Source of the DNA: a virus
DNA length: 32,015 nucleotides
Virus record (IMG/VR): IMGVR_UViG_3300027742_000029
Coordinates: 1-32,015 of that record
Direction: 5' to 3' (one strand)
Each line of letters starts with the position of its first letter. The first letter of the stretch is position 1. The notes below the pieces were generated by a model. It was given only the letters and a program-made list of their open reading frames with translations. It was not told where the DNA came from and ran no database searches. The translations under genes and the position numbers were made by a program. Below are positions 1 to 10,625 of the stretch, in pieces.

Positions 1-636
1 GTATCTCATTTAGATATTCCTGTCATTGAAGTTAAAAGCGTTCAAGATGTAAAAGATGCTTATAGGTTTATTACTGAAGCACAAGAAGCAAAATCATTTG
101 AAACAGCCTGCCTAGATTCAATCACAGAAATAGCACAAGTACTTCTCACACAATATAAGTCTGAAGAAAAAGACCCTAGACAAGCATACGGAAGATTAAT
201 TGATGACATGAGTTCATTGATTAGACAATTCCGTGACTTGAAAGGAAAGCATGTTTATTTCTCTGCAAAAATGACAAGAATGGAAGATGATTACACTGGT
301 ATCACTACATTCAAATCTATGATGCCTGGAAAAGCACTCGTAAATGATCTACCATTTTTCTTTGATGAAGTTTTTGCTCTAAGGATAGGTGCCGCTGAAG
401 ACAAATCAACTTTCAGATATATTCAAACTCAGCCTGATTTACAGTATGCGGCAAAGGATAGAAGTGGTAAACTTGATAAAATGGAAAGACCAGACTTAAC
501 TTTTATTTTTGATAAAATTCTAAAAAGAAATGATGAAAGTAAAGAGAAAGAAATAGAAAATAAAGAAGATCCTAAAGCCGAACAAAAAGAAAAGGCAGAA
601 CCAGAACCAGAAGAACAAAGCAAAAAGCAAGCATAA
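1..636 (+). CDS. Sak4-like RecA-fold phage recombinase (5' end missing)
   Basis: The frame is open from base 1, so the gene begins upstream and only its last 211 codons are seen; the internal ATG at 208 is not a credible start because the conserved domain begins before it. The Walker B-like strand TACLDSITEIA (about residues 37-47 of the visible part) is followed by a region about a short-lived complex with ssDNA and RMEDDYTG, typical of the AAA_24/Sak4 phage nucleotide-binding family. These proteins are RecA-like ATPases that anneal single strands in phage recombination. Walker A must lie upstream of the window. The last 40 residues are a Lys/Glu-rich, probably disordered tail. Its neighbours, a DUF669 protein and a Cas4/RecB-like nuclease, form the usual recombination set. 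Family assignment rests on motif and context. Confidence 0.75.
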   Translation, partial: VSHLDIPVIEVKSVQDVKDAYRFITEAQEAKSFETACLDSITEIAQVLLTQYKSEEKDPRQAYGRLIDDMSSLIRQFRDLKGKHVYFSAKMTRMEDDYTGITTFKSMMPGKALVNDLPFFFDEVFALRIGAAEDKSTFRYIQTQPDLQYAAKDRSGKLDKMERPDLTFIFDKILKRNDESKEKEIENKEDPKAEQKEKAEPEPEEQSKKQA

Positions 637-836: not shown

Positions 837-867
837 GTAGCATATTCAGAGCTACTTAAATCTGAAT
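837..867 (+). promoter_or_regulatory. Compact H-type pseudoknot upstream of the DUF669 start
   Basis: Stem 1 pairs GTAGC (837-841) with GCTAC (851-855). Stem 2 pairs ATTCAGA (844-850) with TCTGAAT (861-867). Loop 1 is two bases, there is no spacer between the stems, and loop 3 is TTAAA (856-860). This geometry allows coaxial stacking. The element ends 43 bases before the ATG at 910 and is followed by an A-rich tract with no pairing partner. Known precedent: the T4 gene 32 mRNA carries a compact pseudoknot at a similar place, where gp32 binds to block its own translation. A like role here is inferred. Confidence 0.55.
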
Positions 868-909
868 GAAATAAAACTAAACCAAAACAAACAACGCAGG
901 AATAGAAAA

Positions 910-6283: not shown

Positions 6284-6825
6284 ATATTGTTATTTTTGAT
6301 ACTGAAACGACTGGCCTCACTAAAGCTGCGCCTGCAAGGATCGAACTTCAACCTTATATGACTGAAATTTATTGCCTAAAGATAAATGAAAAGTTTGAAA
6401 AGGTCGGAGAACTTGAGTCAATGGTTAAGCCGCCAATCCCAATAAGCAAAGAAATAACAAAAATAACAGGGATAACAGACTATGACGTTGCACATGCCCC
6501 GATATTCTTTTCAATCTATGATAGACTGTATGATTTCTTTAGTGATGTTGATATTGTTGTCGGTCATAATGTTTCTTTTGATATTGATGTTATGCATTAT
6601 GAACTTTTCAGACATGATCTTGACAAAAAATTCTGCTATCCAAAAAGGCATATTTGCACGGTCGAAGAAAGCTACCACATTAAGAACAAAAGGTTAAAGT
6701 TAATTCAGTTGCATGAAGAGTTGTTTGGTGAAGGTTTTGATGGTGGACATCGCGCCAGAAATGACGTCGTTGCCACTGCATCATGTTTTGTAGAACTTGT
6801 CAAAAGAGGTGATATAGCTTTATGA
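6280..6825 (+). CDS. DnaQ-like 3'-5' exonuclease (polymerase proofreading subunit)
   Basis: 181 residues with all DEDDh motifs: Exo I FDTETTGL (Asp7, Glu9), Exo II GHNVSFDID (Asp101) and Exo III GHRARNDVVAT (His157, Asp162). It is about the size of the catalytic domain of DNA polymerase III epsilon and lacks a long C-terminal tail. It ends inside the start of the polymerase gene (4-nt overlap), so the two are almost surely made together and act as polymerase and proofreader. That fits a polymerase whose own PHP domain looks inactive. Confidence 0.9.
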   Translation: MNIVIFDTETTGLTKAAPARIELQPYMTEIYCLKINEKFEKVGELESMVKPPIPISKEITKITGITDYDVAHAPIFFSIYDRLYDFFSDVDIVVGHNVSFDIDVMHYELFRHDLDKKFCYPKRHICTVEESYHIKNKRLKLIQLHEELFGEGFDGGHRARNDVVATASCFVELVKRGDIAL

Positions 6826-9800
6826 TGCATCTAACTCTTAAATCAGAATACTCATTCGGGCAATGTTTTGGCTACTTAAAATCATTGCATGACAACTATT
6901 CTAGTGATGGAGTCATAGGAATAGCAGACACAAATACTTTTAGCTTTTATAAGTTAGAGCAAATGTGCAAAAAATCTGGTGTAAAACCGATTTACGGTTA
7001 TAGATGTACAGTTGTAAATAATGCAACTCAGAAGGTTAAGCCTAGAGGACAGTTCGGGAAAGAGTATATAATAATTGCAAAGAATGTAATTGGTCTTAGA
7101 GAGATTTTTAATCTAACTAAGATAATGTCACAAAATTTTTATTATAGAGGGAATGTGTCTGTATCAGATATAAACTCTCTAAGTAATAATGTTATTGTTA
7201 TATCGACTGACCCAGTAGCCAACAGACTTGATTATTTAGGTATCGGTTTTACAACACCAGAAAGAACAAAGAATTACAGATGTAAGAAAGTTTTTGTAGA
7301 CCAAAACTTTTATAGTTCTGGTGAAGATAAACCAGTATATCAATTATATGCAGGAAGAAATGCAAATGACAAATCTTGCCCTCAGCATATACTTTGCGAA
7401 GAGGAAGCAATTGCATATTTTGGCAAAGAATGTGTTGATTCTCTTTTAGAGATAGAAAAGTCTGTTGATAGATTTGATCTGCCACTTGCTGAGAATGTTG
7501 AGTATAAAGGCAAAGAAAAGATCGCTGACTTATCAATAGAAGGAGCAAAAAGACTTGGTGTTGATTTAACTGATCCAGTTTATCAAGAAAGATTTGATAA
7601 AGAAATAAGTTTGTTAGAAGATAAAGGTTTTTCCGATTATCTTATGGTTGTTGCTGAAATAATAAAAGAGGCGAAGAGGTATTCACTTGTTGGGCCTGGC
7701 AGAGGAAGTTCCGGAGGTAGTCTAATATGCTATCTTCTCGGGATAACAACGTTTGATCCAATAAAATATGACCTAATCTTTGAGAGGTTCATTGATGTTA
7801 ACCGATTCGATGCCCCTGATATTGATTTTGATGTTCCAGATAAGTATAGAGGGAAAGTCGTAAAATGGATGGAAAAAAGATATGGGATTGATAATGTAAA
7901 AACAATATCAAATATTACAAGATTCAAGCCAAAAAGCGCAATTGGTGAGTTTGCAAAAGCTATGGGTATCCCAAGATTCGAGACTGAGGCAGTAAAGGAT
8001 ATGATATTGCACAGAGCACCCGGTGATGCAAGGGCGGCATTTGCAATGGAGGATACATTTCAAGAAACAGATGCTGGTGTAGAGTTTATAGAAAAGTTCC
8101 CAGAAATGAAAACTGTAACACAGATAGAAAACCATGCAAAAAATAAAGGCAAGCATGCTGCCGGAGTAATAATCTGTAATAAGTCTTTGGCTAATTATTG
8201 CGGTATAGATGAAAGAGATGGCACTGTTTATCTTGACAAAAAAGATGCAGAAGGACTCAACCTTTTAAAAGTTGATGCTCTTGGTCTTAGAACCCTATCA
8301 GTACTTCAAGATTGTGCAAAATCAATAGGGATGGACTATAATGATTTTTATGATTTGCCTCTTGATGATGAAAAGTCATTTGAAGTATTCAAAAATAAAA
8401 GGTTGGGTGGAGTATTCCAGTTTGAGGGAGAAGCTGTAAAAAGCATAAACCATTCTGCACCTATGGAGCATTTTGAAGATATAGTTGCTGCTGGTGCACT
8501 TGGTAGGCCAGGTTCTTTATCATCAGGCGGAACATCAAGATATATAAAATTAAGAAACGGAGAAAGAGAGCCAACATTTTATTGTGATAAGCATAAAAGA
8601 ATAACAGAAAGCACTTATGGGGTTGTTGTTTATCAAGAAACAATGATGGCTCTGTGTAAAGAAATTTCTGGAATGTCTTGGGAGGATGTTTCATCACTGA
8701 GGAAAGCAGCATCGAAGTCTTTAGGTGAAGAATTCTTTGATAAATACAGGATAAAGTTTGTGGAAGGTGCTATTGCGTTATCAGGTTATGATGAAGAAAC
8801 TGCAAATAAAGCATGGTTAGATATATCATCAATGGGATCATATGCCTTCAACCGTAGTCATTCTGTAGCTTATGCTTATATCTCATATTGGTGCGTACAT
8901 GGACAAACAAAACTTTTTGACTGGGATAATAAAAGATTCATCACCATTGCAAATGCATACAGAAATGGCGTTGAAAACATAGCATGTTATGATGAGGAAA
9001 CAGGCAAAACAATAAAAGGGAAAGTAAAAAAGGTAATAAGAACAACGGGAGCAAAAAACCTCGGGAAGAAAAAGGCGATAAAGATAAAGCTAAAAAATAG
9101 GAGAAAGATAATATGCTCTCATGACCACAAAATATTGACAGATAATGGTTATATAAGAGCGATTGATCTTTCAATCGGCGACAATATTATGTGTGAAAAA
9201 CTTTGCGTAGAGATTACCGACAGTTTAATAGAAAAAAGGTCAGAGAGTTTTAAAAGAAGATGGGGGTCAGAAGAAAGAGAAGCGTTGATAAAATGTACAG
9301 CCAAAGGTGGTTTTGCTACTGCAAAAAGCGGCAACCATTACTCTCATTATAACCACATGAGTGATTCTGAAAAAGAACAGTTTAGGGAAGATTTCAGAAA
9401 TAATGTTCAACCGCTTGCGGCAGAGGCAAACATAGGCTCTAAGCGATACTTAATGAGTAATGGGAAAAAGACGAATTCTATGTTTGAAACCTTATTTGAA
9501 AATACACTTATTGATTTAGGTGTTGATTATGAATGGCAAAAGCTTGTAGATAACAAGGAGTATGAAAAAGACCAGCACCAATTCAGTGATTTTTTTATAA
9601 ATGGGGTTTATATAGAGCTAGAGTTAAACAAAAGAGATAAGTCATACTATGATGATAAATACTGCTGTGGCGAATCATATATAGTGCTTGGAGGTGATAC
9701 AGGCGTTGAAGACATTAAGCTTGCTGTAGAGCAGTGCTTTCTTGCAGAGCCTATACTGAATGGTGATGAAATAGTTTTATCCAAGATAACCTCAATAACA

Positions 9801-10625
9801 GATTATGAAGATTCTGTCATGTACGATGTTGTTATGGAAAACGAGCCGCATAACTACTTGGCTGATAATATAGTAGTCCATAACTGTTCATACATGAAAG
9901 CTCATCATCCACTTCAGTTTATTGCTGCAATTCTTAATAATTCAAAAGATGACGATAATTCACTAAAAATACTAAGAGAGTTTTATGAGTCTGAAAACTT
10001 GAAATTTAAAGCAGTCGACCCAATGACTTCTGGTGTAAACTGGGAAATAAGAGGTGATGAATTAGTTGGAGGGCTAACCAATATTAAAGGTGTAGGTGCG
10101 GCAAAAGCAATGGATATAATAAAGGTTAGGAAAGGTGAAAAAACTTTAACTCCTGCAATGCTTAATATGCTAGAAAAACCAAAGACTCCATTTTCTATTC
10201 TTTATCCTGCCCGCCATCATTTTGGCAACTTATACAAAAATCCAACTGATTTCGGAGTACCAAAGATACATCTAATAGATGATGTTAATGATCCTGGGGA
10301 ATATTGTGTAATTGGAAAGATGCTTCATGTGGATGATGTTCATGTAAATGACGTCCAAGCCATTGCAAAAAGAGGAGGTGAAGTTCTATCCGGGCCTGAT
10401 ATGAAAGTTCATATACGGATAGAAGATGATACAGGAGTAATAATGTGCATACTTGGTAGGTTTGTATATGAACAAATGGCTGATGAATTCTTGAGAGAAA
10501 AGGTTGGTTCTACTTGGTATTGCATAATGGGTAAAATAATGCCGGGGATAAGAGTTCTTTTTATAACCCAAGTTGCAAATCTAAACAAACAAATAGGTTT
10601 AAATGAAGGTGAGGAAGAGCGATGA
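6822..10625 (+). CDS. dnaE: DnaE-type DNA polymerase III alpha, interrupted by an intein
   Basis: 1267 residues including a 331-residue intein; the spliced protein would be 936, shorter than bacterial DnaE. The N-terminal PHP domain (about 1-90) starts HLTLKSEYS, where two of the three motif I histidines are Thr and Lys, and TDHG has become ADTN, so metal binding is probably lost. The C-family active site is intact: GPGRGSSGG (291-299), PDIDFD with catalytic Asp333 and Asp335, and KVDALGL with Asp485. A conserved FNRSHSVAYAYISYW segment is followed by the intein, then CSYMKAHHPLQF. A C-terminal OB-like region follows (about 1140-1260). ATG at 6822 or 6825 can both serve. The next gene overlaps it by 4 nt. 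Confidence 0.92.
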   Translation: MMHLTLKSEYSFGQCFGYLKSLHDNYSSDGVIGIADTNTFSFYKLEQMCKKSGVKPIYGYRCTVVNNATQKVKPRGQFGKEYIIIAKNVIGLREIFNLTKIMSQNFYYRGNVSVSDINSLSNNVIVISTDPVANRLDYLGIGFTTPERTKNYRCKKVFVDQNFYSSGEDKPVYQLYAGRNANDKSCPQHILCEEEAIAYFGKECVDSLLEIEKSVDRFDLPLAENVEYKGKEKIADLSIEGAKRLGVDLTDPVYQERFDKEISLLEDKGFSDYLMVVAEIIKEAKRYSLVGPGRGSSGGSLICYLLGITTFDPIKYDLIFERFIDVNRFDAPDIDFDVPDKYRGKVVKWMEKRYGIDNVKTISNITRFKPKSAIGEFAKAMGIPRFETEAVKDMILHRAPGDARAAFAMEDTFQETDAGVEFIEKFPEMKTVTQIENHAKNKGKHAAGVIICNKSLANYCGIDERDGTVYLDKKDAEGLNLLKVDALGLRTLSVLQDCAKSIGMDYNDFYDLPLDDEKSFEVFKNKRLGGVFQFEGEAVKSINHSAPMEHFEDIVAAGALGRPGSLSSGGTSRYIKLRNGEREPTFYCDKHKRITESTYGVVVYQETMMALCKEISGMSWEDVSSLRKAASKSLGEEFFDKYRIKFVEGAIALSGYDEETANKAWLDISSMGSYAFNRSHSVAYAYISYWCVHGQTKLFDWDNKRFITIANAYRNGVENIACYDEETGKTIKGKVKKVIRTTGAKNLGKKKAIKIKLKNRRKIICSHDHKILTDNGYIRAIDLSIGDNIMCEKLCVEITDSLIEKRSESFKRRWGSEEREALIKCTAKGGFATAKSGNHYSHYNHMSDSEKEQFREDFRNNVQPLAAEANIGSKRYLMSNGKKTNSMFETLFENTLIDLGVDYEWQKLVDNKEYEKDQHQFSDFFINGVYIELELNKRDKSYYDDKYCCGESYIVLGGDTGVEDIKLAVEQCFLAEPILNGDEIVLSKITSITDYEDSVMYDVVMENEPHNYLADNIVVHNCSYMKAHHPLQFIAAILNNSKDDDNSLKILREFYESENLKFKAVDPMTSGVNWEIRGDELVGGLTNIKGVGAAKAMDIIKVRKGEKTLTPAMLNMLEKPKTPFSILYPARHHFGNLYKNPTDFGVPKIHLIDDVNDPGEYCVIGKMLHVDDVHVNDVQAIAKRGGEVLSGPDMKVHIRIEDDTGVIMCILGRFVYEQMADEFLREKVGSTWYCIMGKIMPGIRVLFITQVANLNKQIGLNEGEEER
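8892..9884 (+). mobile_element. Intein with probable Vsr-like PD-(D/E)XK homing endonuclease
   Basis: Intein residues 1-331 are polymerase residues 691-1021. Block A begins with Cys1 (CVHGQTKLFD). Block B has SHDH at 76-79 (the SxxH catalytic pair). Block F has YDVVMENEPHNYLADN near 311-326, with His320. The end is His330-Asn331, followed by extein Cys+1, so all class 1 splicing residues are present. The middle (about 112-290) lacks LAGLIDADG motifs; instead it shows a SMFETLFENTLIDLG helix (Glu199), QFSDFF (Asp233) and IELELNK (Glu242/Glu244, Lys247), the order seen in Vsr/DUF559-type PD-(D/E)XK nucleases. The insertion point is in a highly conserved polymerase segment. The nuclease assignment is inference. 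Confidence 0.9.

Follow-up and report, generated by a model that had tools for sequence, protein, structure and literature searches.

Covarying pseudoknots ahead of phage DUF669 genes and their proposed role as autogenous operators of a single-stranded DNA-binding protein

The locus described here raises the question of how a single-stranded DNA-binding protein (SSB), indifferent to the sequence of the DNA it binds, picks out its own message. The phage protein gp32 nucleates on a pseudoknot and from there spreads along a tract rich in A and U until it covers the ribosome site (PMC3014915, PMC535899). We examined a 32,015-nucleotide stretch of viral DNA (IMG/VR record IMGVR_UViG_3300027742_000029, positions 1 to 32,015; 'the window') in which a sequence-only reading had pointed out a comparable layout in front of a gene of the DUF669 family and had proposed that the encoded protein controls its own translation.

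The window pseudoknot and its gene

Positions 837–867 of the + strand can form, as judged from the letters, a compact H-type pseudoknot with stems of 5 and 7 bp and no spacer (GTAGC AT ATTCAGA GCTAC TTAAA TCTGAAT). The two strands of stem 1 (GTAGC, 837–841; GCTAC, 851–855) flank a 2-nt loop 1 (AT, 842–843) and the 5' strand of stem 2 (ATTCAGA, 844–850), and a 5-nt, A/U-rich loop 3 (TTAAA, 856–860) leads into the 3' strand of stem 2 (TCTGAAT, 861–867). The geometry is as the sequence-only reading had described it, and the knot ends 42 nt before the ATG at 910. Those 42 nt (868–909) are 64% A and only 7% U, with a mean pairing probability of 0.14; they comprise an A-rich tract predicted to be unpaired (868–897), which is the proposed lattice for protein spreading, and a Shine-Dalgarno-like AGGA (898–901). 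Nested folding of the ordinary kind is unable to display a knot; taken singly, the stems are valued at −5.1 and −6.0 kcal/mol.

A scan for H-type knots, based on a crude energy score of stacking energies and loop penalties, gave this knot the top rank for the whole + strand of the window, and among 500 dinucleotide-shuffled versions of the leader (130 nt) none equalled its score. The T4 gene 32 leader was used as a positive control: there the best knot of the scan fell at the known operator site, with a 4-bp stem 1, a single nucleotide in loop 1, a 7-bp stem 2 and no spacer, and lay 39 nt from the ATG.

Only one relative, L050, carries the window's exact knot (ATAGC AA GCCTAGA GCTAT ATTAAA TCTAGGC). 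When the two leaders were aligned with MAFFT, unaided, all 12 pairs stood in both and five were changed on both sides, one of them in stem 1 (G-C to A-U) and four among the seven pairs of stem 2; sliding the partner strand by 1–3 columns left 12–35% paired. The corresponding shuffle control (11/500) is weak, since it draws on two sequences only. Three further relatives (L001–L003) share a differently proportioned knot (AATAG TATAT GGGA G CTATT CAAAA TCCC) that has two compensated pairs in stem 1, is weak when taken alone (42/500 shuffles) and is followed by a GTAGC-GTA-GCTAC hairpin. The leader of L007, whose protein is 53% identical to that of the window, has no knot. A DNA similarity search with the window leader against phage records gave no match, and a DUF669 alignment search in genome contigs found nothing.

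The gene that follows the knot (910–1392, + strand) encodes a predicted ssDNA-binding protein of 160 aa, for which Pfam gives a single family, PF05037 (DUF669; 50.7 bits against a cut-off of 21). Its AF2 model, which is of moderate quality (pLDDT 71), displays an OB-like order of strands and helix and matches best, among PDB structures, PrgE of plasmid pCF10 (E 8e-5, TM 0.5–0.6), a protein likewise solved with DNA bound. The DUF669 homologue of phage HK620 is a demonstrated SSB that acts as the partner of Sak4 and stimulates it (PMC5928155), and homology to that protein supports the prediction that the window protein is an SSB that binds ssDNA. The two also share Sak4 as a gene neighbour: positions 1–636 (+ strand; 5' end cut by the window) encode an AAA_24/Sak4-like annealing protein, assigned by Pfam and by Sak4-like annotation in relatives. 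A nuclease-like gene and a helicase lie on the 3' side. The text of the HK620 paper does not mention a pseudoknot, and RNA binding was, as far as searched, not studied there (PMC5928155). A Pro-Trp-type C-terminal tip (aa 155–160 in the window protein) is common to most, divergent, DUF669 proteins; in the HK620 SSB the last six residues are required for binding to Sak4 (PMC5928155).

Recurrence of the knot in other DUF669 leaders

A covarying knot positioned ahead of the DUF669 gene, and attached to it, recurs in unrelated phages. In Septimatrevirus/Kilunavirus-type phages it lies 21–24 nt ahead of the ATG, in about 15 leaders with many compensatory changes, among them those of Ab26 (ACGGT TTA CTTCGCC GCCGT AACCAAT GGCGAAG), KL1 (ACGGT TT TGACCGAC GCCGT ATCAAAT GTCGGTTA), L168 (CAGCT AA TCCGCTA GGCTG AAATT TAGCGGA), L173 (ACGGC GAA TCCGGTAA GCCGT TAA TTACCGGA) and L176 (AGGC GAA TCCGACG GCCT TAAAC TGTCGGA). 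An unaided alignment of the Septimatrevirus-type leaders had 100% of cells paired and four pairs changed on both sides, a result reached in 0/500 shuffles. Rosemountvirus and Loughboroughvirus have a common knot (CGGC CG AACGCT GCCG GTAA AGCGTT), and in KE25 both stems differ from those of Rosemountvirus and are still complementary (GAGC CG AACGCA GCTC CGA TGCGTT). In these three the knot is followed by 32–38 A-rich nt and directly preceded by a promoter-like TTTACG-TATAAT. Missing covariation, or the loss of one stem in relatives, had been named by the sequence-only reading as the way in which its proposal could fail; what we found was that L050 and many unrelated DUF669 leaders retain both stems and show compensatory changes in them.

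Compact knots scoring −14 or better were present in 13 of 33 DUF669 leaders (non-redundant, at least 45 nt long) versus 3 of 108 that precede other genes, taken from eight of the same genomes with a simple gene finder that overlooked some true leaders; the Fisher p of 2.5e-7 for this comparison overstates the evidence, because the leaders are related and do not represent independent events. When strands were permuted among 21 knots of the wider set, stem 2 was 98.9% paired as observed versus 50–56% after permutation, a figure biased upward by the picking of strands for their complementarity, so that the unaided alignments of L050 and of the Septimatrevirus types are the cleaner tests. A division of DUF669 proteins into lineages by single-linkage clustering was set aside, as it over-merges and favours the best of many. 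Fair-scoring knots do occur elsewhere in phage DNA (29 of 110 leaders reach −14 or better if any geometry is allowed), which could be taken to mean that the complementarity arose by chance. That explanation is already contradicted by the compensatory changes (in L050, the Septimatrevirus types and the wider set) and has the window knot's first rank and the 0/500 shuffles of its leader against it as well; we regard it as exceedingly improbable.

In the majority of cases the DUF669 gene directly adjoins Sak4 and a leader is missing (Nonagvirus, Nipunavirus and many IMG/VR contigs). Where tRNA-Gln and tRNA-Leu genes lie between Sak4 and DUF669 (L161 226–300, L173 750–834), the knot still adjoins DUF669. 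This placement bears on one alternative, namely that the knot, as a genuine element of the leader, shields the SSB mRNA at its 5' end or guides the processing of that mRNA, and is not an SSB operator. A −10-like box, as read from sequence, stands just upstream of the knot in Rosemountvirus and in some Septimatrevirus-type leaders (L176, L177), which would put the knot almost at the very 5' end of the transcript, and the record of BP63 has a promoter annotated at that place. Protection of the 5' end, however, gives no reason for clustering at the SSB gene, given its rarity ahead of other genes (3 of 108 leaders), nor for the persistence of the knot with a tRNA gene just upstream, and we consider this account unlikely.

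The Septimatrevirus-type leaders additionally have a conserved hairpin, CTTTTCGAAAAGG, right after the knot and over the Shine-Dalgarno site (559–582 in L156 and also in its relatives L158, L168, L173 and L176; CTTTTGCAAAAGG in L173 and CTTTCGAAAGG in KL1). Cronobacter phage Ss1 (L142 603–682) and Vibrio phage VA-RY-3 (L155 379–482) have a long simple hairpin in the usual place of the knot, beside a −10-like box. A distant DUF669 leader (L064 3517–3589) contains a looser knot, in which CGCTA..TAGCG crosses GTCTA..TAGAC (2/500 shuffles), and possibly represents another lineage of the same kind.

A second structured RNA upstream of the knot

The intergenic region of the window holds, at 668–826 of the + strand, an undescribed structured RNA with covarying helices (element 1) that is absent from the sequence-only reading. 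Two of its helices cross each other (668–675/698–705 and 685–692/713–720), and two more follow (723–729/771–777 and 802–809/819–826). It occurs in one copy each in the window, in L050 (469–642; G003 record), in L002 (2746–2911; G002 record) and in L003 (1023–1226), and among these four, 9 of 20 counted pairs were changed on both sides while 100% of cells remained paired. A search of the G001 record, from which L001 comes, did not find it; L001 has a 54-aa ORF in its place (2753–2917).

The conserved core of element 1, GGTTAATACACGCTAAGTATAATCCT (779–804, + strand), which is common to the four phages in the form TTAATRCACGCTAAGTATARTCCT, includes a −10-like TATAAT (796–801) and no consensus −35. 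Searches with DNA patterns for the core returned L002 and L003 only, the other matches being chance occurrences without the rest of the element. A sigma-70 scan gave no site at the core, and its reading as a T7-like or sigma-70 promoter was set aside for want of the −35. A group I intron, suggested by the resemblance of TAAGTATAGTCC to a J8/7-P7 strand, was dropped because the order of helices is wrong and a match in Rfam is absent.

The presence of element 1 and the knot in the same intergenic region (in the window, L050, L002 and L003), together with the strong covariation of element 1, would suit an arrangement in which the knot forms one sub-domain within a single large structured leader and the real function is that of element 1, whether as a riboswitch, a phage non-coding RNA, a promoter or an origin structure. 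Against this, the knot occurs without element 1 in L001, where it is kept at the DUF669 gene, and in Septimatrevirus and Rosemountvirus leaders. We therefore treat the two as separate and think a single large leader quite unlikely.

Comparison with known systems and proposed role

The gene 32 operators of T4, T2 and RB69 resemble the window leader in placing a compact H-type knot with a 7-bp stem 2, a loop 1 of 1–2 nt and no spacer before a phage SSB gene (PMC3014915, PMC535899). The window and Rosemountvirus leaders also have approximately 40 nt of A-rich RNA, predicted to be unpaired, up to the ATG, which may be comparable to the A+U-rich tract of the gene 32 leader; in the window, U makes up only 7% of it, and Rosemountvirus is similar. 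The differences are that the protein here belongs to DUF669 and is not gp32 (the SSB of Straboviridae), that the knots have no visible sequence similarity and only loosely echo the UUAAA repeats, and that the knot is much nearer the start in L050 (18 nt before the ATG) and in the Septimatrevirus types, in which the long A-rich spacer, seen in the window and Rosemountvirus only, is short or absent. The T4-like layout claimed by the sequence-only reading is accordingly borne out for the knot, whose geometry matches that of the gene 32 operator found by the same scan, and finds no general support for the A-rich spreading tract. As Pfam gives DUF669 only, the window leader would work like a gene 32-type operator without being a member of that group. 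The further suggestion of an independent system in an unrelated phage fits these observations, gp32 and DUF669 being, as we take it, separate Pfam families.

Ribosomal proteins S15 and S4 repress their own synthesis by way of a knot that lies in the leader, close to the start codon. Those operators are ribosomal and cellular, and ribosome entrapment is not implied for DUF669 leaders, but for knots that lie 18–24 nt from the ATG they may offer the better comparison. Pseudoknot leaders serve both ribosomal proteins and preQ1 riboswitches, which lends some plausibility to a different ligand, be it a small molecule or a protein (Sak4, a ribosomal protein or one of the host), or to a platform for translation initiation that has no dedicated repressor; the conserved CTTTTCGAAAAGG hairpin of the Septimatrevirus types could be an independent switch. 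An Rfam search with the window leader (knot and element 1), at the gathering score and at E up to 5, gave no match to a riboswitch or any other family, the stem sequences vary freely, unlike those of a small-molecule aptamer, and it is the SSB gene that recurs beside the knot, not a metabolic gene. A ligand other than the SSB, or a platform of this kind, therefore appears doubtful to us. The STAXI motif of Rfam (Weinberg 2010) is also a pseudoknot RNA that is often found near SSB genes (PMC2864571); it differs in that its knot comes in two or three tandem copies, whereas the knot described here is single, lies in a 5' leader and lacks an Rfam match.

The best reading of the DUF669 knots is that they would be autogenous translational operators, convergent with that of T4 gene 32. 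By analogy with gene 32, we think it probable that the knot in the DUF669 mRNA leader serves as the SSB's own cis-acting operator, to which surplus SSB would bind and so stop translation. The case for DUF669 as the ligand is strengthened by the proven SSB activity of a homologue, by the OB-like model and by the retention of the knot at the DUF669 gene despite upstream insertions and losses (L001, L161, L173). The mechanism might run as follows. SSB in excess of the available ssDNA would bind the leader knot; in the window and in Rosemountvirus it could then spread from the knot across the A-rich single strand onto the ribosome-binding site, while the short distance from knot to start in L050 and the Septimatrevirus types could let it block the start site directly; in either case translation of the SSB mRNA would cease. 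The SSB as ligand, the lowered translation and the spreading are all three what we infer from the comparison with gp32.

More broadly, we lean towards the view that several lineages of tailed phages with no relation to T4 came by pseudoknot operators, whether each through its own evolution or by exchange, for the autogenous control of an SSB that is not gp32 but DUF669. If so, the gene 32 paradigm would be a recurrent, convergent solution and not a peculiarity of T4, and a covarying family of similar leaders ahead of an unrelated SSB would widen what was one case into a general rule that can be tested. The family includes phages with laboratory hosts, namely those of the Pseudomonas phage 73/Ab26 type, Burkholderia phage KL1 and the Salmonella Rosemountvirus phages.

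Elsewhere in the window, a gene of the DNA polymerase III alpha type (6822–10625) contains an intein at aa 709–1021 (Pfam Intein_splicing), which is absent from the polymerase gene of a relative (L005 9366–12182).
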